Below, piece after piece: positions 1 to 10,402 of a stretch of DNA of 64,000 nt. The stretch comes from Arboricoccus pini. GTDB taxonomy: Bacteria; Pseudomonadota; Alphaproteobacteria; Geminicoccales; Geminicoccaceae. The translations under genes and the position numbers were made by a program. Every line of letters starts with the position of its first letter. The stretch's first letter is position 1. The stretch is taken from positions 1 through 64,000 of the forward strand of contig NZ_FYEH01000016.1 of the NCBI RefSeq assembly GCF_900187945.1, in the 5' to 3' direction. Under the pieces are notes generated by a model. It had not been told where the DNA came from. It ran no database searches and saw only the letters and a program-made list of their open reading frames with translations.

Positions 1-188
1 CCCTGACCCCCGTGCGCGCTTATCTAAGCTGGCTGCGCGGCCAGGTGGCAAAGCTGCAGGATCAGGGCGTGCAGATCGATGCTATCGTCGAGGCGGTGCC
101 GTTGCCGGCTGGCGCCACATGGCTGGTGGCCGAGGATGTGCACCCGCGCAACGTGATCGCGGTCTATAAGGAACTGGAATGGGAGTAG
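1..188 (+). CDS. C-terminal end of a probable quinoprotein relay-system zinc metallohydrolase (5' end outside window)
   Basis: An open frame enters from the left edge (first full codon at base 3) and stops at TAG 186-188, giving about 61 C-terminal residues that end in VYKELEWE. The segment has no complete domain. Its ending (a helix, a loop, then HPRNV followed by YKELE) resembles the C-terminus of SoxH-like metallo-beta-lactamase proteins that accompany PQQ-dependent dehydrogenases. The next gene is a fused SoxYZ-like carrier, the usual neighbour of that hydrolase family. The identity is an inference from context and a short tail, since the catalytic HxHxDH region is not in the window. Confidence 0.5.
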   Translation, partial: LTPVRAYLSWLRGQVAKLQDQGVQIDAIVEAVPLPAGATWLVAEDVHPRNVIAVYKELEWE

Positions 189-229
189 CCCGAGAAGGGG
201 CCGAACCATCTGGATCAGGAGGTTGGGGC

Positions 230-1042
230 ATGCAAAGGCGCCAGGCATTAGCGCTCTCGGCCATGGGGCTCGTGGCCGTGACGAGGCGGGCACGAGGCGA
301 GGATGCGCCGGAGGGAAGCGGCGCCTGGGACGATGTCCGCACCACACTCTTCGACAACCGGCCATCGCAGGCGAACGAGGCGATCGTATCGCTGGATGCA
401 CCCGCTCGGGCCCTCGATGCGTCGGTGGTGCCGATGACCATCAAGCTCGGGCAGCCGGCGGCGGAACAAGATCGCGTCCGCACGATCTGGCTGGTGATCG
501 ACGAGAATCCCGCCCCCGTGGCCGGCATCTTCCACCTGCACGAGGTGAGCTTTGGCGCCAGCATCCAGACCCGCGTGCGGGTGAACAGCTACACGCGGGT
601 CCATGCGATCGCCGAGACCAGTGACGGCCGGCTGTTCGTCTCGGAGCGGTTCGTCAAGGCGGCGGGCGGCTGCTCGGCACCGGCTATGAAGGACCCGGCC
701 GAGGTGGAAGCCCGGCGCGGGCGGATGAAGCTCAAGGAACTGGGCACGTTCGCGGCGGGGCAGCCGAACACGGTCCAGCTCTTGATCAGCCATCCGCAAT
801 ATACCGGCATGCAGATCGACCAGCTCAGCCGCAACTGGATCCCGCCCGACTATCTGCGGCGCATCAACCTCGCCTATGACGGTGCGCCGGTCATGGAGAT
901 CGATGGCGACATCTCGATCGCCGAGGATCCGAGCCTGACCTTCGTCTTCATCCCGCCGCGACCAGGCACGCTCACCGTGGAGGCGACCGACAACAAGTCG
1001 CGAACCTACAAAGGCAGCTTCCCCATGGGCAGCGCCACGTGA
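230..1042 (+). CDS. Quinoprotein dehydrogenase-associated SoxYZ-like fused carrier protein
   Basis: This 270-residue exported protein fuses a SoxY-like domain to a SoxZ-like domain. In the Sox system SoxYZ carries sulfur intermediates on a C-terminal SoxY cysteine; the fused form is found beside PQQ-dependent alcohol dehydrogenases, where its cargo is unknown. I see a signal peptide (about residues 1-23), a SoxY-like beta domain, a GGC motif with Cys148 followed by SAPAMKD, and a SoxZ-like sandwich from about residue 165 ending in TLTVEATDN. The ATG at 230 has AGGAGG at 216-221 in front of it. An in-frame ATG at 179 overlaps the previous stop but lacks a site and would bury the signal peptide. 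It belongs to the relay module with the upstream hydrolase. Confidence 0.85.
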   Translation: MQRRQALALSAMGLVAVTRRARGEDAPEGSGAWDDVRTTLFDNRPSQANEAIVSLDAPARALDASVVPMTIKLGQPAAEQDRVRTIWLVIDENPAPVAGIFHLHEVSFGASIQTRVRVNSYTRVHAIAETSDGRLFVSERFVKAAGGCSAPAMKDPAEVEARRGRMKLKELGTFAAGQPNTVQLLISHPQYTGMQIDQLSRNWIPPDYLRRINLAYDGAPVMEIDGDISIAEDPSLTFVFIPPRPGTLTVEATDNKSRTYKGSFPMGSAT

Positions 1043-1341: not shown

Positions 1342-1381
1342 TGACAAGCATTTTTCGTGGCGCCACGAAAAATGCTTGTCA
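1342..1381. promoter_or_regulatory. Perfect 40-bp palindrome in a divergent intergenic region
   Basis: The left arm TGACAAGCATTTTTCGTGGC is followed without spacer by its exact reverse complement, 40 of 40 bases. It sits between the minus-strand 62-aa gene (start 1280) and the plus-strand binding protein (start about 1456-1486). A symmetric site of this length between divergent promoters could be an operator for a dimeric or tetrameric regulator, a cruciform, or an RNA hairpin in the plus-strand leader. There is no U-run on either side, so an intrinsic terminator is unlikely. Confidence 0.85.
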
Positions 1382-1455
1382 TGCACAATCTGCCGCCCTT
1401 GCCATCATGTTTTGCTTATGACATCCATAAGTCTCTCCAAGAGATGAGGCCGCGA

Positions 1456-2781
1456 ATGCCGACTAAGGGGGGATCGAAGCATGGAATGTCGGCTTTAGTT
1501 CGTCTTGGCACGGGCCCCCTGTCGCGGGGCTCACGTGCCATCTGTCTAGGCGTGGCGCTTCTTGTCACTGGCTCCGGCCTCCTCCGGGCCCAGACACCGC
1601 CTTCGAGCGATACGGCACCGGCCGCCAGCCCGACCAAGCCCGGCCAGGTGAAGCTATCGATCGAGATCGTCTATTTCAGCCGCGAGGAGCGGCCGGTCGA
1701 GTATCTGTCGCTGGCCGAGCCCGTCCTGACCGATGCTGGCCTCCGTGGCGTCGAGCAGGGGATTCGCGATGACCAGACGACCGGCCGCTTCCTCGGCCAC
1801 GCTTATGCGATGTCGACGATCAAGGTGCCGGCCAATGGCGACATAGCGGCGGCCTTCAAGGCGGCGCTGGACAAGGGGCAGCGTTTCTTCGTGGCCGACC
1901 TCAAGAAGGATGATCTTTTGACGATCGCGCCTTTGGCCGATGCCGCGGGTGCCATCGTCTTCAATGCGCGAGCACCCGACGACGACCTCAGGACCGACAT
2001 CTGCCATATCTCGGTTTTCCACACGGCCCTCTCCTACGCCCAGAAGGCTGACGCGTTGGCGCAGTATCTGGTCTGGAAACGCTGGACGCGCTGGTTCCTC
2101 CTTGTGGGCTCGCACCCGGAGGACAAGGCATTCGGCACCGCATTGCGGCGGTCCGCTACGAAGTTTGGCATCAACATCGTCGAGGACCGGACCTACGAGG
2201 ACACAGGGGGCGCCAGGCGAACCGACACCGGTGCCGTGCAGGTGCAAAGGCAGATGCCGATCGTGACGCAAAACGCGGCCACGCATGACGTCGTCGTGGT
2301 TGCCGACGAGAGTGAGGTGTTTGGCGACTACGTGCCCTATCGGACTTGGGACCCTCGGCCTGTGGTCGGGACTTCGGGGTTGGTGCCGACAGCCTGGAGT
2401 CGGGTCACCGAGCAATGGGGCGGCACGCAGATGCAGCGGCGCTTCGAGAAGACGGCGGGGCGGCCGATGAACGAGCGCGACTATGATGCCTGGGTGGCGA
2501 CGCGCGCGTTGGGAGAGGCCGTGACGCGTACCGGCAGTGCCGATCCCGCGACGCTGCATGCCTATCTGGCCTCCGACAAGCTGGAGGTCGGCGCATTCAA
2601 GGGGCAGGGGCTCTCCTTCAGAGCGTGGGACCAGCAAATCCGCGAGCCCATTTTGCTGGTGACGTCGCGCACGCTGGTCTCGGTTTCGCCGCAGGACGAG
2701 TTCCTGCATCAGCGATCGACGCTTGATACGATGGGTTTCGATGAGCCAGAAAGCCGCTGTCGGCTGAACGGGCCGGGATGA
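1456..2781 (+). CDS. ABC-type substrate-binding protein of the PQQ-dependent catabolism type
   Basis: This 441-residue protein resembles periplasmic branched-chain-type binding proteins found next to PQQ alcohol dehydrogenase genes (family known as PQQ_ABC_bind). A long basic n-region is followed by a hydrophobic signal (AICLGVALLVTGSGLL, ending near AQ), then a two-lobed body with VYFSREERPVEYLS near the start and DYDAWVATRALGEAV near the end. Start choice is uncertain. ATG 1456 has GAGG six bases upstream; ATG 1486 would give a more normal signal peptide. The stop overlaps a possible ATG of the next gene (ATGA at 2778). No ATPase or permease for it is present here, so it may act as a sensor or carrier in the relay rather than in transport. 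Confidence 0.8.
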   Translation: MPTKGGSKHGMSALVRLGTGPLSRGSRAICLGVALLVTGSGLLRAQTPPSSDTAPAASPTKPGQVKLSIEIVYFSREERPVEYLSLAEPVLTDAGLRGVEQGIRDDQTTGRFLGHAYAMSTIKVPANGDIAAAFKAALDKGQRFFVADLKKDDLLTIAPLADAAGAIVFNARAPDDDLRTDICHISVFHTALSYAQKADALAQYLVWKRWTRWFLLVGSHPEDKAFGTALRRSATKFGINIVEDRTYEDTGGARRTDTGAVQVQRQMPIVTQNAATHDVVVVADESEVFGDYVPYRTWDPRPVVGTSGLVPTAWSRVTEQWGGTQMQRRFEKTAGRPMNERDYDAWVATRALGEAVTRTGSADPATLHAYLASDKLEVGAFKGQGLSFRAWDQQIREPILLVTSRTLVSVSPQDEFLHQRSTLDTMGFDEPESRCRLNGPG

Positions 2782-2819
2782 ACAGACAAATGTCTTCGAG
2801 CATGCGCAATCGAGAGAAG

Positions 2820-3800
2820 ATGATAAAGTACCGCCTCGGGCTGGGAGTCCTTTGCGGCGCCCTCGGCGCAGGCTTCGCGATGCCGGCCTCGGCCTTCGAG
2901 CTCTTCGTCTCCAACGAGAAGGGCAACACGGTCACCGTCCTGGACGGCGCCACGCTGGCGCGCAAGCAGGACATTCCGGTGGGCCAGCGGCCGCGCGGCA
3001 TCGTCATGGCTCCCGATGGCAAGCATGTCTATATCTGCGCCTCGGACGACGACACCATCCAGGTGATGGACACGCAGACCAAGGAGATCGTGGGCAGCCT
3101 GCCCTCCGGGCCCGATCCGGAGCTGTTGGACGTCTCGCCGGACGGTAAGCTCGTCTATGCCGCCAACGAAGACGACAACATGGTCACCGTGATCGACGTT
3201 GCGAGCGGCAAGGCGCTGGGCGAGATCCCGGTGGGTGTGGAGCCCGAGGGCATGGGCGTCAGCCATGACGGCAAGTGGCTGGTCAACACCTCCGAGACCA
3301 CCAACATGGCCCATTTCATCAACGCCGAGACGCAGGAGATCACCGACAACGTTCTGGTCGACCAGAGGCCGCGTTTCGCGCGCTGGACTGCGGACGATGC
3401 CGAGGTCTGGGTATCCTCCGAGGTCGGCGGGACGGTGGCGGTCATCGATGCCAAGACCCGGCAGATCAAGAAGAAGATCGGCTTTGCCGTGGCGGGTGTG
3501 CCGCAGGAGGCGATCCAGGCCGTGGGTGTTGCGATCACCAAGGATCGCAAATGGGCCTTCGTCGCGCTCGGGCCGGCCAACCGCGTGGCCGTGGTCGACG
3601 CCCAGACGTTCGAGGTCAAGAAATATCTCCTGGTCGGCCAGCGTGTCTGGCACATGGAGTTCAGCCCGGACGAGAAGTTTCTCTACACGACCAACGGTGT
3701 GTCGAACGACATCTCGGTCATCGATGTCGGCGCCCAGGAAGTGACCCAGTCGGTGCAGGTTGGCGAGATGCCCTGGGGCGTTGCCGTTACCCCGCAATGA
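2820..3800 (+). CDS. Seven-bladed YVTN-type beta-propeller protein, PQQ-dependent catabolism-associated
   Basis: A 326-residue exported protein with a clear signal peptide (MIKYRLGLG to MPASA) and seven repeats of the pattern G/N-x-VxVxD, for example GNTVTVLDG, DTIQVMDTQT, NMVTVIDVAS, TVAVIDAKT and NRVAVVDAQT. The family (PQQ_ABC_repeats) co-occurs with PQQ dehydrogenases, probably as a periplasmic scaffold or electron-relay partner; it lacks the tryptophan-docking motifs of PQQ enzymes themselves. ATG 2820 is preceded by GAGAGAAG. An earlier in-frame ATG at 2778 overlaps the upstream stop, which indicates translational coupling but would extend the n-region by 14 residues. It is followed by 302 bases without a convincing gene. 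Confidence 0.82.
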   Translation: MIKYRLGLGVLCGALGAGFAMPASAFELFVSNEKGNTVTVLDGATLARKQDIPVGQRPRGIVMAPDGKHVYICASDDDTIQVMDTQTKEIVGSLPSGPDPELLDVSPDGKLVYAANEDDNMVTVIDVASGKALGEIPVGVEPEGMGVSHDGKWLVNTSETTNMAHFINAETQEITDNVLVDQRPRFARWTADDAEVWVSSEVGGTVAVIDAKTRQIKKKIGFAVAGVPQEAIQAVGVAITKDRKWAFVALGPANRVAVVDAQTFEVKKYLLVGQRVWHMEFSPDEKFLYTTNGVSNDISVIDVGAQEVTQSVQVGEMPWGVAVTPQ

Positions 3801-4102: not shown

Positions 4103-4786
4103 ATGGTGACTCTTCCGGTGACATTCGCATGCAAGAACGGGCAGCCGGCATCGAGGCGCGCCGGCTGGCGGCCCGTGTTTCTCACGCTAGCCCTGATGAC
4201 GATCCCTCTGGTCGGCGCCAGCGCGCAGCCCGCCACCGATCCCGACTGGCCCTGCGCCCAGCGTCTGGTGCCGGAACTTTCCGCCGCCACGCTCTGGCAG
4301 GGGCCGGAGCTGCCTACGACGCCACCGCCCGCTGACGACGCGACAACGGATCTGGCCGAGCGGCTGATCGATCGCAGTCTGCCCATGGACAAGGCTACCG
4401 AGCTCGTCAACGAAACGGTGAGCGGCACGGCGGCCGCCGAGCGGCGCGCGAAGATGGAAGGGCTTTTCTTAGCCGTCATCGACGTCGCCAACCGGCAACG
4501 CTCCGGCATGATCGAGGGCATCCGCAATTTCGGCCGACGTCAGCACGCCCTGGCCGATCGTATCAATAACGAATCGCGACAAATCCGCGATCTCGAGGCG
4601 CAGGGCACCGATGCGGCCAGCGACGATCTGCCCGGCCTTCGCGAGCAGCATCTATGGGACCTGCGCATTTTCGACGAACGCCAGCACACCGTGCGCCTTG
4701 CCTGCGACGAGCCGGTCCAGGTGGAGCAGCGCAGCTTCGCGCTTGGTCGCGTGATCGCCTCGACATTGAAGGAGCAAGGTCAGTGA
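4103..4786 (+). CDS. Exported protein of unknown function in the PQQ module
   Basis: A 227-residue protein with an N-terminal hydrophobic segment (about residues 25-42, ending near GASAQPA) consistent with a signal peptide. The mature part is mostly charged and predicted helical: LAERLIDRSLPMDKATELV, a central ERRAKMEGLFLAVIDVAN, and a coiled-looking NNESRQIRDLEAQG. Conserved-looking cysteines are PDWPC and RLACDEPV. I do not recognise the family. Its stop TGA (4784-4786) overlaps the GTG start of the next gene, and that gene overlaps a third, so these three proteins are made together. Position between the relay genes and pqqA suggests a periplasmic role tied to quinoprotein oxidation, which is inference. 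Confidence 0.7.
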   Translation: MVTLPVTFACKNGQPASRRAGWRPVFLTLALMTIPLVGASAQPATDPDWPCAQRLVPELSAATLWQGPELPTTPPPADDATTDLAERLIDRSLPMDKATELVNETVSGTAAAERRAKMEGLFLAVIDVANRQRSGMIEGIRNFGRRQHALADRINNESRQIRDLEAQGTDAASDDLPGLREQHLWDLRIFDERQHTVRLACDEPVQVEQRSFALGRVIASTLKEQGQ

Positions 4787-5535
4787 GCGGCTTGAACCAG
4801 GCGATCTCGACGAGGTCGCGGCTCACTGCGGTCATGCTCATGGCGGCCCTTTCCCTGGGCGGCGTGCCAGCGCTGGCAGAGGAAGCCGGCGCGCCGCCGG
4901 CCACGACGGCTGCGCCCGATGAGCCGCCGCCACCCGATCCAGCCTCGGTCACGACTCACCTCTTTGCCCGCAACCTGATGAGCAGCGTGCAAAAGCCCGC
5001 CCACTTCGTCTATGACGTGGCGCGCCTTTCCAAGGGCGAGGCGCCAGTGAAGGGCCATATCCTGATGGATGTGCGCGAGATTGGGCAGGACGGCGTCAAA
5101 TCCGTCTATTTCAAGACCGATGGCGGCTTTGGCCCGTTCGACTTCGGTCCGGTCCAGGCATCGAGTCAAAACCCCGTCGTCATCGTCTACCTGCAGGACG
5201 ACGTCGTCCGGCTGCAGCGTCTGACCGGCGGCTCGCAGCAATATTTCCGCAATCGCATCCGTGCGGCCTTCAACGGTCCGGCGCGGATCGAGCCCGTCGA
5301 GGTCAGCTACAAAGACCGCAAATTCACGGGCGAACGGATGACAATCCTGCCCTTTGCCGGCGATGAGCACCTAAAAGAGCATCCTGAGATCAAGGAGAAG
5401 AGCTACAGCTTTACCGTCGTGCCGGACCTGCCGGGTGGCATCTACTCGATTGCGGCACAGGTCCCCAATCCGAGCGGTGGCGCTCCGGTCGAGGATGGTT
5501 CCATAACGCTGACCGACATGACCCCAGTGGAGTGA
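4783..5535 (+). CDS. Exported protein of unknown function, middle gene of a coupled three-gene block
   Basis: A 250-residue protein starting at GTG 4783, inside GTGA with the previous stop; upstream AAGGAGCAAG is a good ribosome site. A signal peptide (about residues 12-33, ending near ALAEE) is followed by a proline-rich linker (DEPPPPDPAS) and a beta-rich domain containing VRLQRLTGGSQQYFRNRIR and GGIYSIAAQVPNPSGG. No cysteine is apparent in the mature part and I cannot name the family. Downstream overlap (stop 5533-5535, next ATG 5535) makes co-translation likely. It could be an adaptor or assembly factor for a periplasmic dehydrogenase; nothing in the sequence proves it. Confidence 0.72.
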   Translation: MSGLNQAISTRSRLTAVMLMAALSLGGVPALAEEAGAPPATTAAPDEPPPPDPASVTTHLFARNLMSSVQKPAHFVYDVARLSKGEAPVKGHILMDVREIGQDGVKSVYFKTDGGFGPFDFGPVQASSQNPVVIVYLQDDVVRLQRLTGGSQQYFRNRIRAAFNGPARIEPVEVSYKDRKFTGERMTILPFAGDEHLKEHPEIKEKSYSFTVVPDLPGGIYSIAAQVPNPSGGAPVEDGSITLTDMTPVE

Positions 5536-5921
5536 TGAGCTTGCGCCGATTTTCGCCTCTCGCTTTCGTCCCGATGGCCCTTCTTTGCGGTCTGGCGCTG
5601 CCGGCGCCGGTGAAGGCGGCACCGGCCGATTACCCGACCGAGGAACTGGCCGATTACGTGTTTGGCTGCATGGCGGCCAATGGCCAGACCCAGACGGCGC
5701 TGCGCGCTTGCTCGTGTTCGATCGACACGATCGCCGCCAAGCTGCCCTTTGCCGATTATGAGCGGGCCGAGACGGTAATGAGCATGCAGCAGATACCGGG
5801 TGGCGACGATCGCGCCGTGTTGTTTCGAACGCAGCCGCTCCTGCTCGCCATGGTGGATAAGTTGAAGGCAGCCCAGGTCGAGGCCGAGCAGAAATGCTTT
5901 CCAGTCGCCAACGGCAACTGA
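5535..5921 (+). CDS. Small exported cysteine-containing protein of unknown function
   Basis: A 128-residue protein with a strong signal peptide (LAFVPMALLCGLALPAPVKA, cleaved near residue 29) and a mature helical domain with four cysteines: VFGCMAANG, RACSCSID and EQKCFPV. The CxC pair and spacing suggest two disulfides or a metal or haem-free redox site. I recall similar short proteins beside PQQ alcohol dehydrogenase genes, without an assigned function. The chosen start is ATG 5535, overlapping the previous stop as TGATG; a GTG at 5532 is also possible. The LysR gene follows after only 12 bases, so the block may extend into the regulator. Confidence 0.72.
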   Translation: MSLRRFSPLAFVPMALLCGLALPAPVKAAPADYPTEELADYVFGCMAANGQTQTALRACSCSIDTIAAKLPFADYERAETVMSMQQIPGGDDRAVLFRTQPLLLAMVDKLKAAQVEAEQKCFPVANGN

Positions 5922-5933
5922 CCCAGGCCCGCC

Positions 5934-6920
5934 TTGGCCAGCCTCAATCAGCTCAAGATCTTCTGGACCGTCGCCAATAGTCCGTCCTTGACCAAGGCCG
6001 CCAAGCAGCTGGGCCTCTCGCAACCCTCGCTCTCGCAGCAGGTGGCGAAGCTCGAGCAGAGCCTGGGCGGCAAGCTGTTCGATCGCGTCAACAACCAGCT
6101 CATCCTCACCGATGCCGGCCGCTATCTGGTCCGCAGGGCCGAGATCATCCTAAGCGAGGTCGACGAGACCGAGATCGAGATCGCCGCCTTCTTGAATGGC
6201 GGCCGCGGACGCATCGCCGTCGGTTCGCTGGCCTCGCTGGCGCGCACGGTGGTCCCGGATGCGATGCGTCGGCTGGAGGCGCTTAGGCCCGGGATCGAGA
6301 TCGATCTTCATGAGCTCTCGCCGGTTGAGGCCGTCGACCAGCTCTACGGCCGTAACCTGCAGATCGCGCTCTTGTCCTCTTTCTCGCTGGCGCCCAATCG
6401 CAACGCGTTCAGCAAGATCGAGCTTATGGAGGACCAGCTCGTCCTGGCCGTGCCTGCGCATCTCGACATTGACGGCGTGGCCGACCCGGAACGCGATTTG
6501 TCGGTCGAAGGGCGCGACCTGCTGAACCGGACGATCCAGTTCAATTTCGGCAACCAGCAAAACAGCCGTACCGAGGAATGGTATCGCCGGGTGCTGCCTC
6601 GTCACAGGACGGTCGCCTGGTGCCGCTCCTACGAGAGCGCCCTTGCCATGGTCGAGGCGGGGCTCGGAGTCTGCTTGGTCCCGCACATGGCAACGCAGCA
6701 GAACGGTCGGTTGCTCTTCGATGTCAGGCTTTATGCTGTTCCGGGATGGGTGCGGCCAATCGTCGCTCTCGTTTCGCCGCAATATCTCCGCCAGGAGCCG
6801 TTTTCACTGTTCGTGCAAGCGCTGAGGGAGGCGGGCAAGGGCTGCAATCCACCTGCGCTCAGGGCGTGTCCGCCTTTCGTGCTGGACCGCACCGACCAGA
6901 TTGCAAAAAATAAATCTTAG
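5934..6920 (+). CDS. LysR-family transcriptional regulator
   Basis: A 328-residue LysR protein with a TTG start at 5934. The winged helix occupies residues 1-60 (LTKAAKQLGLSQPSLSQQVAKLE is the recognition region), followed by a linker helix and a substrate-binding domain from about residue 90 to 300 (GRIAVGSLASL at its start, AGLGVCLVPHM near the end). The C-terminal 25 residues are longer than usual and contain two cysteines. It lies in the same direction as, and just upstream of, pqqA and 12 bases after an exported protein gene, so control of the PQQ or dehydrogenase genes is likely but unproven. No typical divergent target is present. Confidence 0.88.
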   Translation: MASLNQLKIFWTVANSPSLTKAAKQLGLSQPSLSQQVAKLEQSLGGKLFDRVNNQLILTDAGRYLVRRAEIILSEVDETEIEIAAFLNGGRGRIAVGSLASLARTVVPDAMRRLEALRPGIEIDLHELSPVEAVDQLYGRNLQIALLSSFSLAPNRNAFSKIELMEDQLVLAVPAHLDIDGVADPERDLSVEGRDLLNRTIQFNFGNQQNSRTEEWYRRVLPRHRTVAWCRSYESALAMVEAGLGVCLVPHMATQQNGRLLFDVRLYAVPGWVRPIVALVSPQYLRQEPFSLFVQALREAGKGCNPPALRACPPFVLDRTDQIAKNKS

Positions 6921-7035: not shown

Positions 7036-7122
7036 ATGCAGAAGTCAGCTTGGACGGCGCCTAAGGTTGAGACCACGACGGTGAGCATGGAAGTGACCAT
7101 GTATCTGCCGGCGCAGGCCTGA
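7036..7122 (+). CDS. pqqA: PqqA, precursor peptide of pyrroloquinoline quinone
   Basis: A 28-codon gene encoding MQKSAWTAPKVETTTVSMEV followed by TMYLPAQA. PqqA supplies the glutamate and tyrosine that PqqE cross-links and that become PQQ. The pair is visible as Glu19 and Tyr23 (E-V-T-M-Y), with the family pattern W-x-A-P-x-V upstream. GGGAGA at 7024-7029 lies six bases before the ATG, and pqqB begins 38 bases after the stop. The usual Gly before Met-Glu is Ser here, and the tail after Tyr is short (PAQA). Confidence 0.93.
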   Translation: MQKSAWTAPKVETTTVSMEVTMYLPAQA

Positions 7123-7159: not shown

Positions 7160-8089
7160 ATGCACATTATCGTGCTAGGCGCCGCCGCCGGCGGCGGCTT
7201 TCCCCAATGGAATGCCAATTCCGAGGCCTGCCGCCGCGCGCGCGCCGGTGATCCCGCCGCGAGGCCGGCGACCCAGGCCTCGATAGCCCTCTCGGCCGAT
7301 GGCAGGCGCTGGGCGATCATTAATGCCAGCCCCGACCTTCGCGCCCAAATCGAGCGCACGCCCGCCCTTCAGCCGCGTGAGGGGCTGCGCTCCTCGCCCA
7401 TCGCTGCGGTGCTTTTGACGAATGGCGATGTCGATGCCATCGCGGGCCTGCTCAATCTTCGGGAGGGGACGGGGTTCGGCCTCTATGCCCACCCGCTCGT
7501 GCACGGCATCCTCGACCGCAATCAGATCTTCGAGGTCGTGAACCGCTCCATCGTCCCGCGACGGCCGCTTGGCATCGGTGCCGCGCTCATGCTGGGCGAT
7601 GCGGCGGACGCACCCATCGATATCGAGGTCGAAGCCTTCGCCGCGCCCGGCAAGGTGCCGCTTTATGCGGAGGAAGCGGCGGGAGCCGCGCTGGATACGG
7701 CCTCGCTCGCTGGCGAGAGCCTGGGGCTGGAGTTCAAGACCCCTGCCGGGCGGCTCGTCTATCTCGCCAATTGTGCCCGCATCAGCGAGGCGGTGCGACG
7801 TCGCGTCGATGGTGCGGCCATCCTCTTCATGGACGGCACGCTCTGGCGAGACGACGAGATGATCAGGGCCGGCATCGGCACCAAGACCGGGCGGCGCATG
7901 GGGCATGTGTCGATGGATGGCGCCGACGGCGTCATCGAAAGTCTGGCCGGCCTGACGATCGGCCGGCGTATTTTTATTCATGTCAACAACACCAACCCAG
8001 CGCTCCTTGCCGATTCGCCGGAACGGGAAAAGCTGGAAGCTGCCGGCTGGCGTGTGGCCTATGACGGCATGGAGCTCGAGCTTAAATGA
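7160..8089 (+). CDS. pqqB: PqqB, metallo-beta-lactamase-fold PQQ biosynthesis protein
   Basis: A 309-residue MBL-fold protein needed for PQQ production, shown in other bacteria to act as an iron-dependent hydroxylase on the PqqA-derived intermediate. The N-terminal VLGAAAGGGFPQWN, the NASPDLRAQI strand, LTNGDVD at about residue 93 and HVNNTNPALL near the C-terminus are all typical. The residue after the LTNGDVD aspartate is Ala, where classic MBL enzymes have His; I believe other alphaproteobacterial PqqB proteins share this. AGGTG precedes the ATG. The stop overlaps the pqqC start (ATGA). Confidence 0.97.
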   Translation: MHIIVLGAAAGGGFPQWNANSEACRRARAGDPAARPATQASIALSADGRRWAIINASPDLRAQIERTPALQPREGLRSSPIAAVLLTNGDVDAIAGLLNLREGTGFGLYAHPLVHGILDRNQIFEVVNRSIVPRRPLGIGAALMLGDAADAPIDIEVEAFAAPGKVPLYAEEAAGAALDTASLAGESLGLEFKTPAGRLVYLANCARISEAVRRRVDGAAILFMDGTLWRDDEMIRAGIGTKTGRRMGHVSMDGADGVIESLAGLTIGRRIFIHVNNTNPALLADSPEREKLEAAGWRVAYDGMELELK

Positions 8090-8859
8090 CCCTCACCATC
8101 AACGATTTCGCCGATCTTCGCAGCGCCGAAGCACTAGAAGCGGCGCTGCGCGCCATCGGGGCGGAGCGCTACCACAGCAACCACCCCTTCCATCATCTCC
8201 TGCACAGCGGCCAGCTCGACAAGGGCCAGGTGCAGGCCTGGGCATTGAACCGCTGGTACTACCAGTCTCGTATCCCGATGAAAGATGCGGCCTTCATGTC
8301 GCGCGTCGTCGACCCGGATCTGCGCCGGGAGTGGTCGCAGCGTGTGGTCGACCATGACGGCACCAGGGAAGGCGTGGGTGGCGTCACGAAATGGCTGCGG
8401 CTCTGCACGGGGCTCGGGCTCGATGAGGCTTATGTGCGCTCGGAGCAGGGTATCCTCCCAGCCACCAAGTTCGCCGTCGAAGCCTATGTCCATTACGTGC
8501 GCGAGCGCTCCCTTCTGCAGGCGGTAGCCTCTTCGCTGACCGAGCTCTTCTCACCCACGATCATCAAGGATCGGGTGGCAGGCATGCTGAAGCATTATGA
8601 TTTCGTCGACGAGGCGACGCTCGGCTATTTCCAGGCGCGCATCACCCAGGCGCCGCGTGACTCCGATTTCGCGCTGGCCTTCGTCAAGCAGCATGCGCGC
8701 AACGAGGAAGAGCGCCAGCAGGTTTGCGAGGCGTTGCTTTTCAAGTGCGACGTGCTCTGGGCGCAATTGGATGCGCTGCATCACGCCTACGTGCTGGAGG
8801 GTGGCATCCCGCCCGGCGCCTTCGAGCCGGTGCGTGAGCAAGGCAGGGTCGCCGCATGA
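8086..8859 (+). CDS. pqqC: PqqC, pyrroloquinoline-quinone synthase
   Basis: A 257-residue cofactorless oxidase that carries out the last step of PQQ synthesis, ring closure and oxidation of AHQQ by O2. Expected motifs are present: NHPFHHLLHSGQL (about residue 29), WALNRWYYQSRIPMKDA, HDGTREGVGG, and FTELFSP-type SSLTELFSPTI, plus HYDFVDEATLGYFQAR. Length equals the family norm. It overlaps pqqB by four bases and pqqD by four bases (ATGA at both ends), so the three are translated as a unit. Confidence 0.97.
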   Translation: MTLTINDFADLRSAEALEAALRAIGAERYHSNHPFHHLLHSGQLDKGQVQAWALNRWYYQSRIPMKDAAFMSRVVDPDLRREWSQRVVDHDGTREGVGGVTKWLRLCTGLGLDEAYVRSEQGILPATKFAVEAYVHYVRERSLLQAVASSLTELFSPTIIKDRVAGMLKHYDFVDEATLGYFQARITQAPRDSDFALAFVKQHARNEEERQQVCEALLFKCDVLWAQLDALHHAYVLEGGIPPGAFEPVREQGRVAA

Positions 8860-9176
8860 GCGCTGCCCGCACGCCCGTCTGCGAGGACGCGATCGTCAGG
8901 CTCGCGCCCTATGCCCGCCTCAAGGAAGACAAGATTCGCCAATGCATGGTGCTGCTGGCACCCGAGCGCGTGCTCTTCCCCTGCCCGACGACGGTGATGA
9001 TCCTGGAACGTCTGGACGGCAGCTGCACGCTGCGCGCCGTCGTCGATCGCATGGCGGACGAATTCGAGGCGCCGCGCGAGGTGATCGCCGCCGACACGCT
9101 GCGCATGCTGGCCGATCTCGACCGCCAGGCCCTCTTGGACGTCCAGCCCGTGGAGACCGGCCATGCGCGCCACTAG
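8856..9176 (+). CDS. pqqD: PqqD, PqqA-binding chaperone
   Basis: A 106-residue RiPP-recognition protein that delivers PqqA to the radical-SAM enzyme PqqE. The family pattern is clear: an N-terminal beta strand RLAPYARLKEDKIRQC, then LLAPERVLFPCPTTVMILERLDG, then a winged-helix-like part TLRAVVDRMADEFEAPREVI. It is slightly longer than the usual 90 residues because of the C-terminal LLDVQPVETGHARH. It is encoded separately, not fused to PqqC or PqqE as in some relatives. pqqE follows 41 bases later. Confidence 0.95.
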   Translation: MSAARTPVCEDAIVRLAPYARLKEDKIRQCMVLLAPERVLFPCPTTVMILERLDGSCTLRAVVDRMADEFEAPREVIAADTLRMLADLDRQALLDVQPVETGHARH

Positions 9177-9182
9177 GCCGGC

Positions 9183-9226
9183 GCCGATCATGCTGGACCC
9201 CAGGCCGGAGGCCGATCATGCTGGAC
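9183..9226 (+). repeat. 16-bp direct duplication at the pqqD-pqqE junction
   Basis: GCCGATCATGCTGGAC occurs at 9183-9198 and again at 9211-9226, a 28-base offset. Each copy carries an ATG-CTG-GAC start context, but only the second ATG (9218) is in the pqqE frame and only it has CGGAGG correctly spaced at 9206-9211. A small slippage duplication of the start region would explain the 41-base gap between genes that are otherwise overlapping in this operon. Confidence 0.75.
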
Positions 9227-10402
9227 ATTGAACCAGCCGCCCCGCCATCGACGCTCAAGGAACCATGGGGCGAGCCCCCCATGGGCATGCTGGCGGAGCT
9301 CACGCACCGCTGCCCGCTGCAATGCCCCTATTGCTCCAATCCGGTCGAGCTGGAGCGGGTGGCGGGCGAATTGGACGCGGCTGCCTGGAAGCGGGTCTTC
9401 GCCGAGGCGGTCGAGCTGGGTGTCCTGCAGCTTCATCTTTCGGGCGGCGAGCCCACGGTGCGCAAGGATCTGGAGGATCTGGTGGGAGAGGCCTCGCGCC
9501 TCGGGCTCTATACCAACCTGATCACCAGCGGCGTGCTGTTGAGCGAGGCACGTCTTCTGGATTTGAAGCGGGCCGGGCTCGATCATATCCAGCTCAGCCT
9601 CCAGGGGGCGACGGCGCTGACGGGCGATCGCATCGGCCATTACAAAGGCGGGCATGCGAAGAAGCTCGAGCTGGCAAAGGCGATCGGTCGGGCGGGCTTG
9701 CCGCTGACGATCAATGCCGTGGTGCATCGGCAGAATCTCGACGAGCTGGAGGGCTTGATCGATCTGGCGCTTGCTTGCGATGCGCATCGCATCGAGGTGG
9801 CGCATGTGCAGTATTATGGCTGGGCGCTGGCCAATCGTGCCGCGCTGATGCCGACCCGGGCCCAGCTGGAGCGGGCGACTGCCATCGTCGACGATGCCCG
9901 CGTTCGTCATGCCGGCCGGCTGATGGTCGACTATGTCATCCCGGATTATTACGCCAAGCGGCCCAAGCCCTGCATGGGCGGCTGGGCGCGGACCGTCTTG
10001 AACGTAACGCCGTCGGGTGCCGTGCTGCCCTGCCATGCGGCGCAGAGCATCAAGTCGCTGACTTTCCCCAATGTCCAGGATCATGATCTTGCCTGGATCT
10101 GGCAGTCGAGCGAGCCGTTCCAGCGGTTTCGCGGCACGGACTGGATGCCGGAACCTTGCCGTTCCTGCAGTTTCAAGGAGCAGGATTTTGGCGGTTGTCG
10201 CTGTCAGGCGATGGCGCTCACGGGCGATGCCGCCAACACCGATCCGGCCTGCGAATTCTCGCCCTTCCACGACCTTTTGCGGCTGACGGCCGAGGACGAG
10301 GCCGCGAGCGAGCCGCCGGCCTTCACCTATCGCCGGCCACTTGCAAACGCCCCGGCCATGGGCACGCCCGGTCTCGTGGGGGCGACCAAGGGCATGTCAT
10401 GA
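9218..10402 (+). CDS. pqqE: PqqE, radical SAM PqqA peptide cyclase
   Basis: A 394-residue radical SAM enzyme that forms the C-C bond between the glutamate and tyrosine of PqqA. The SAM cluster site is Cys32, Cys36, Cys39 (CPLQCPYC), followed by LSGGEPTVRKDL. The C-terminal SPASM half shows KPCMGGW, VLPCHAAQ, PCRSCSFKEQDFGGCRCQA and PACEFSP, enough for two auxiliary clusters. ATG 9218 is preceded by CGGAGG; the open frame extends far upstream only because pqqC and pqqD are GC-rich. The stop overlaps the ATG of the acetyltransferase. Confidence 0.97.
   Translation: MLDIEPAAPPSTLKEPWGEPPMGMLAELTHRCPLQCPYCSNPVELERVAGELDAAAWKRVFAEAVELGVLQLHLSGGEPTVRKDLEDLVGEASRLGLYTNLITSGVLLSEARLLDLKRAGLDHIQLSLQGATALTGDRIGHYKGGHAKKLELAKAIGRAGLPLTINAVVHRQNLDELEGLIDLALACDAHRIEVAHVQYYGWALANRAALMPTRAQLERATAIVDDARVRHAGRLMVDYVIPDYYAKRPKPCMGGWARTVLNVTPSGAVLPCHAAQSIKSLTFPNVQDHDLAWIWQSSEPFQRFRGTDWMPEPCRSCSFKEQDFGGCRCQAMALTGDAANTDPACEFSPFHDLLRLTAEDEAASEPPAFTYRRPLANAPAMGTPGLVGATKGMS

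Follow-up and report, generated by a model that had tools for sequence, protein, structure and literature searches.

Three exported protein families encoded beside pqqABCDE with a probable accessory role in lanthanide-dependent methanol oxidation by XoxF

Near the start of the window (the whole stretch of 64,000 nucleotides that was analysed, which begins contig C10 of a 4.07 Mb genome), three overlapping genes for exported proteins, here called A, B and C, lie between quinoprotein-associated genes and a lysR-pqqABCDE operon. The question raised by this locus is what these proteins do there; it bears on how lanthanide methanol dehydrogenases are supplied with PQQ and metal in the periplasm. 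A preliminary description had treated the proteins as being of unknown function. That wording was too strong, since homologues with mutant phenotypes exist in Methylorubrum extorquens AM1 (PMC7391723). The analysis described here makes it quite probable that A, B and C are accessory proteins for the oxidation of methanol by lanthanide-dependent XoxF.

Gene layout, family membership and predicted structures

The coupled arrangement noted in the preliminary description was present in the sequence: a GTGA overlap joins A to B, the start codon of B being GTG, and a TGATG overlap joins B to C. Each of the three N-termini has a hydrophobic stretch that was judged by eye to be a signal peptide, as had been claimed, and the neighbouring genes were confirmed by TIGR and Pfam matches (Table 1). 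The start codon of A is uncertain, with several in-frame GTG codons available. Relatives of the three overlapping reading frames were found at approximately 20-66% identity across dozens of genomes, showing that these are genuine genes and not random frames. Searches of A, B, C and all members of their alignments against Pfam, NCBIfam and PDB sequences gave nothing consistent. The truncated reading frame at the contig start was 51% identical by tblastn to residues 254-314 of a relative in genome G014 (family TIGR04559); a SoxH-like metallohydrolase and a SoxYZ-like carrier are both encoded alongside the trio.

Table 1. Features of the first part of the window, with the evidence for each assignment.
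Feature	Coordinates	Strand	Evidence
Quinoprotein relay zinc metallohydrolase 2 (SoxH-like), 3' end, cut by contig start	3..188	+	tblastn
Quinoprotein dehydrogenase-associated SoxYZ-like carrier	179..1042	+	TIGR04557, 246 bits
PQQ_ABC_bind periplasmic binding protein (LutA/PedA1-like)	1357..2781	+	TIGR03863, 461 bits
PQQ-dependent catabolism-associated beta-propeller (PedA2-like)	2778..3800	+	TIGR03866, 496 bits
Gene A, exported LutG-family protein, 227 aa	4103..4786	+	profile A1; W49, P50, C51 and C201 invariant in the family alignment
Gene B, exported Orf7 (META1p1747) family, 250 aa, predicted LolA/RseB-like fold	4783..5535	+	synteny, model, Foldseek/VIA
Gene C, exported small helical Orf6 (META1p1746) family, 128 aa, four invariant cysteines	5535..5921	+	
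LysR-type regulator	5934..6920	+	Pfam LysR_substrate, HTH_1
pqqA precursor peptide, 28 aa, EVTMY motif by eye	7036..7122	+	translation
pqqB	7160..8089	+	TIGR02108, 372 bits
pqqC	8086..8859	+	TIGR02111, 368 bits
pqqD	8856..9176	+	TIGR03859, 53 bits, above cut-off
pqqE, start codon picked by eye	9218..10402	+	TIGR02109, 566 bits

Profile A1, built on the family of gene A, matched the genes that occupy the LutG position behind pedB-pedC in eight genomes, with E values from 7e-67 to 4e-43. In Methylorubrum salsuginis (locus L149) the matched gene (E 3.3e-66) lies behind the TIGR03861 permease, at the end of a series comprising TIGR03863, TIGR03866, two small genes, the TIGR03864 ATPase and that permease, an order that fits lutA to lutG of M. 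extorquens AM1. A relative of A was also found behind pedC in seven further genomes, from Methylobacterium, Ancylobacter, Bosea, Methylopila, Azorhizobium and Pseudoxanthobacter.

For B and C, the reference point was the AM1 locus, in which xoxF1 (1740), orf6 (1746), orf7 (1747) and pqqE (1748) are numbered in this order (PMC7391723). In M. salsuginis (locus L090), B and C lie behind pqqB-pqqC-pqqE, with xoxF on the opposite strand, and this order is that of AM1 reversed. Because both sequence and gene order matched, A was assigned to the LutG family, at a rearranged position, B to the Orf7 family and C to the Orf6 family; in each case the link to AM1 runs through M. salsuginis and its synteny rather than through the AM1 sequences.

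Within the A1 alignment, one LutG-family member matched Metal_resist (6e-6) and one matched ZraP (2.5e-4), which is a weak hint that A may be akin to periplasmic metal-sensing helical proteins. This identity was set aside and not built upon because the remaining members of the family gave no such match.

The AlphaFold model of B (pLDDT 84, pTM 0.75) consists of strands and a central helix pair; in the models of both B and C the N-terminal stretch is of low confidence. Foldseek and VIA-align matched residues 52-250 of B to LprG, LppX, RseB, MucB, LolA and VioE with Foldseek probabilities of 0.9-1.0 and VIA Z-scores of 7 to 9. Since the Foldseek TM-scores of these matches were low, at approximately 0.3, the likeness was read as one of fold class only. 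B is thus predicted to be a LolA/RseB-like half-barrel with a helical lid, a fold that by itself specifies no ligand. The model of C comprises five helices, with a core pLDDT above 85; Foldseek and VIA returned no fold match for it (best Z 4.7), a result that does not in itself indicate a new fold. The alignment of C showed that C45, C59, C61 and C121 are invariant, which bears out the four cysteines, including a CxC pair, that had been noted earlier; one further cysteine lies in the signal peptide.

Conservation of the trio with XoxF, PQQ genes and the SoxYZ-like carrier

The company kept by these genes was determined with 80 named loci fetched from the genome collection using C alone as the query. 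B was present in 76 of these loci, the SoxYZ-like gene in 59, pqqC in 46, xoxF in 30 and A in 27, and not one of the 80 lacked every other gene of the module. Over 86 named loci, C came after B in 80, and in 69 of the loci scored the B stop and the C start overlap by 4 or 1 bases. All 30 of the PQQ dehydrogenases within reach of C carried WD[YF]D (30/30 in the named loci). This motif is the lanthanide signature of PQQ dehydrogenases and includes the extra aspartate that serves as a lanthanide ligand.

Two genome samples were then counted, in neither of which kinship between genomes was taken into account. Among 31 genomes of the order, A was found in exactly the 20 that encode a strong PQQ dehydrogenase match (above 440 bits); 18 of these 20 also have B and 19 have C, and neither of the two genes occurred in any other of the 31. 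Of 290 genomes sampled evenly across the class, 19 have C by raw counts (a PQQ dehydrogenase is encoded in 18 of these and the SoxYZ-like carrier in 17), 17 have A (15 with the dehydrogenase) and 11 have B (10 with it). In eight class genomes no B was found beside C, as determined with the profile on DNA and, for the rest of each genome, by a filtered search, and the B-C pair is therefore not obligatory. About one third of the genomes with a high-scoring XoxF-like dehydrogenase lacked C. One 1.4 Mb genome (G135; L169, L170, L172) encodes the trio, the carrier and the complete ABC transporter, with no strong PQQ dehydrogenase match. Conservation of these families together with XoxF and the SoxYZ-like carrier extends over the Alphaproteobacteria and reaches some Beta- and Gammaproteobacteria. 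The preliminary description would have been contradicted by homologues scattered away from pqq or quinoprotein genes; they were instead tightly tied to pqq, the SoxYZ-like gene and xoxF.

The association with the carrier raises an alternative, which we consider rather doubtful: that C, and perhaps B, belongs to a thiol relay in which the CxC pair and other cysteines of C would exchange disulfide or sulfane sulfur with three partners: the SoxYZ-like carrier, the SoxH-like metallohydrolase and a CXXCW rhodanese. Such a relay would support XoxF, for example by maintaining its vicinal disulfide or through removal of a product. C adjoins the SoxYZ-like gene convergently in 48 of the 86 named loci. 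TIGR04557 carriers of at least 220 bits were found in 17 of the 290 class genomes, all 17 of which have C, although this threshold was picked post hoc and at the curated cut-off C is present in 17 of 26 carrier genomes; only two class genomes had C without a carrier at 220 bits or more. The invariance of all four cysteines of C also fits such an exchange, but these residues may simply pair into two disulfides that stabilise the small helical fold. Furthermore, genome G022 encodes the trio and xoxF, while no fused carrier was found in it by profile, and many Methylobacterium genomes keep B-C with pqqE rather than with the carrier.

The XoxF of the present genome is encoded elsewhere, at C7:81764-83365, close to the end of contig C7; it carries WDYD and is adjoined by a xoxG-like cytochrome gene and xoxJ. 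The very end of C7 (L146:12169-12447) encodes residues 32-69 of the metallohydrolase of which the window encodes residues 254-314, leaving approximately 180 codons missing between the two. As these are the two ends of one gene, the contigs were inferred to adjoin across a gap of approximately 550 bases, and the module probably continues from the window into xoxF. In relatives the linkage of the trio to xoxF is direct: a single contig of G025 carries xoxF, the metallohydrolase gene, SoxYZ, the binding protein and propeller genes, A, B, C, lysR and pqq.

Two other observations were made on this genome. On C7, a 472-aa reading frame (L146:8098-9516) combines XoxJ (TIGR03871) with the PQQ CXXCW rhodanese-like protein (TIGR03865) as a fusion. 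Contig C9 (L148) carries a calcium-type mxaF (WDFA) with mxaJ-like and other mxa-like genes, so that, with xoxF on C7, both types of methanol dehydrogenase are encoded.

According to the preliminary description, the position of the trio is usually held by ABC ATPase and permease genes that are absent here. The usual occupancy was verified in L152, L103, L105, L108, L161, L163, L170 and L171. The absence held for this position and not for the genome as a whole, since the pair (homologues of PedB and PedC) is located on contig C27. Thus A does not directly follow the ABC genes in this genome, a position that is kept in eight others and in G003 (L152), which belongs to the same family. The C27 homologues (L147:8100-9887) scored next best to DrrA/DrrB and NodI, which are ABC-2 exporter types, in contrast to the description of the system as a lanthanide importer.

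Proposed role in lanthanide-dependent methanol oxidation

M. extorquens AM1 grows poorly on methanol plus La3+ when lutG, orf6 or orf7 is deleted or hit by a transposon (PMC7391723). Under these conditions the wild type grew at 0.16 per h, the orf6 mutant at 0.03 per h, the orf7 mutant at 0.08 per h after a 9 h lag and the lutG mutant at 0.03 per h after a 12 h lag, compared to approximately 0.04 per h for xoxF1 xoxF2, xoxG and xoxJ mutants; orf6 and orf7 were required only when La3+ was supplied (PMC7391723). By these growth rates, a mutant lacking orf6 resembles one lacking XoxF. A accompanies the ABC transporter, at the LutG position, and B-C accompany pqq, SoxYZ and xoxF. The earlier suggestion that the trio serves a PQQ dehydrogenase was thus upheld, with the dehydrogenase being of the lanthanide XoxF type; its corollary that the three act as one complex was not, as A and B-C travel apart, and the idea that they pass on the electrons or product of the dehydrogenase found no support.

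Since the rate of the orf6 mutant equals that of XoxF-less strains and B-C lie with pqq, xoxF and the carrier rather than with the transporter, a role in making or activating XoxF was favoured for B and C. We put forward tentatively, as a possibility that falls somewhat short of an even expectation, that B and C act in XoxF maturation or activation. The half-barrel of B would bind a hydrophobic or extended ligand; candidates are PQQ, a chelated lanthanide and part of the apo-XoxF chain. The four-cysteine protein C would act alongside B as periplasmic lanthanide-PQQ XoxF is made or activated. A probably works with the lanthanide ABC transporter; it would assist the separately encoded LutEF/PedBC proteins, which would be fed by the binding protein and the propeller. 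A more specific version is less likely than this general role: B and C would together constitute a periplasmic factor dedicated to loading or activating lanthanide-PQQ XoxF, with C exchanging thiols with the SoxYZ-like carrier. If true, this coupling of a LolA-like carrier to a four-cysteine protein would be a type of quinoprotein maturation machinery not described before. The evidence for the identity and pathway of the trio is strong; the biochemical steps are proposed.

That all three proteins instead bind periplasmic Ln3+ or a lanthanophore for delivery to XoxF or the ABC transporter is unlikely in our estimation. The common La3+ defect of the lutG, orf6 and orf7 mutants (PMC7391723) is consistent with such trafficking, as is the position of A behind the permease of a transporter required for lanthanide-dependent growth. 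In the named loci, however, B and C rarely adjoin transporter genes, their invariant residues include no acidic metal-binding cluster, and the orf6 mutant grows at the rate of XoxF-less mutants whereas lutE and lutF mutants show no growth. A generic periplasmic role in envelope stress or lipoprotein carriage, linked to this module by chance, would suit a fold class that includes RseB, MucB, LolA and LppX, but is highly improbable given that none of the 80 named loci lacked the module genes, that presence tracks the PQQ dehydrogenase and the carrier over 290 genomes and that orf6 and orf7 are required only with La3+ (PMC7391723).

The question of periplasmic supply becomes directly testable with three unnamed families that are tied to lanthanide-specific mutants, to conservation with XoxF and the carrier, and to a predicted LolA-like fold. 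As A, B and C have no Pfam or NCBIfam model, they also provide markers for lanthanide-using methylotrophs.

Comparison with known systems

A literature search for further work on orf6 or orf7, or for a link between LolA and methanol dehydrogenase, found only PMC7391723. The superfamily of periplasmic carriers and sensors that comprises LolA, LolB, RseB, LppX and LprG shares its fold with the model of B, and no sequence similarity was found between B and these families. PedA1A2BC of Pseudomonas putida is a lanthanide transporter to whose families the binding protein, propeller, ATPase and permease belong (PMC6839425). The binding protein and propeller encoded in the window represent PedA1 and PedA2; the transporter genes are split here, with the PedB and PedC homologues on C27, and the P. 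putida ped cluster as published names no homologue of LutG, Orf6 or Orf7 (PMC12997753).

The closest parallels are those with M. extorquens AM1. A shares export, the WPC and C..P motifs and the profile match with LutG (MexAM1_META1p1784) of the lut cluster; it differs in lying directly 3' of the binding protein and propeller genes and in being joined to B and C, with the ATPase and permease on another contig. B and C share with Orf7 and Orf6 (META1p1747 and META1p1746), which are encoded near pqqE and xoxF1, the same order, translational coupling and the neighbours seen in the Methylorubrum locus L090. When compared to the Methylobacterium forms, B is only approximately 24-28% identical and C approximately 45%, and B-C precede lysR-pqqABCDE here whereas in AM1 they lie behind pqqE. 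Contiguous A-B-C was seen only in the family of the window among the loci examined, in 15 of 18 genomes with B. The families themselves are known from the AM1 mutants; what is unusual is the merged operon that joins A to B-C.
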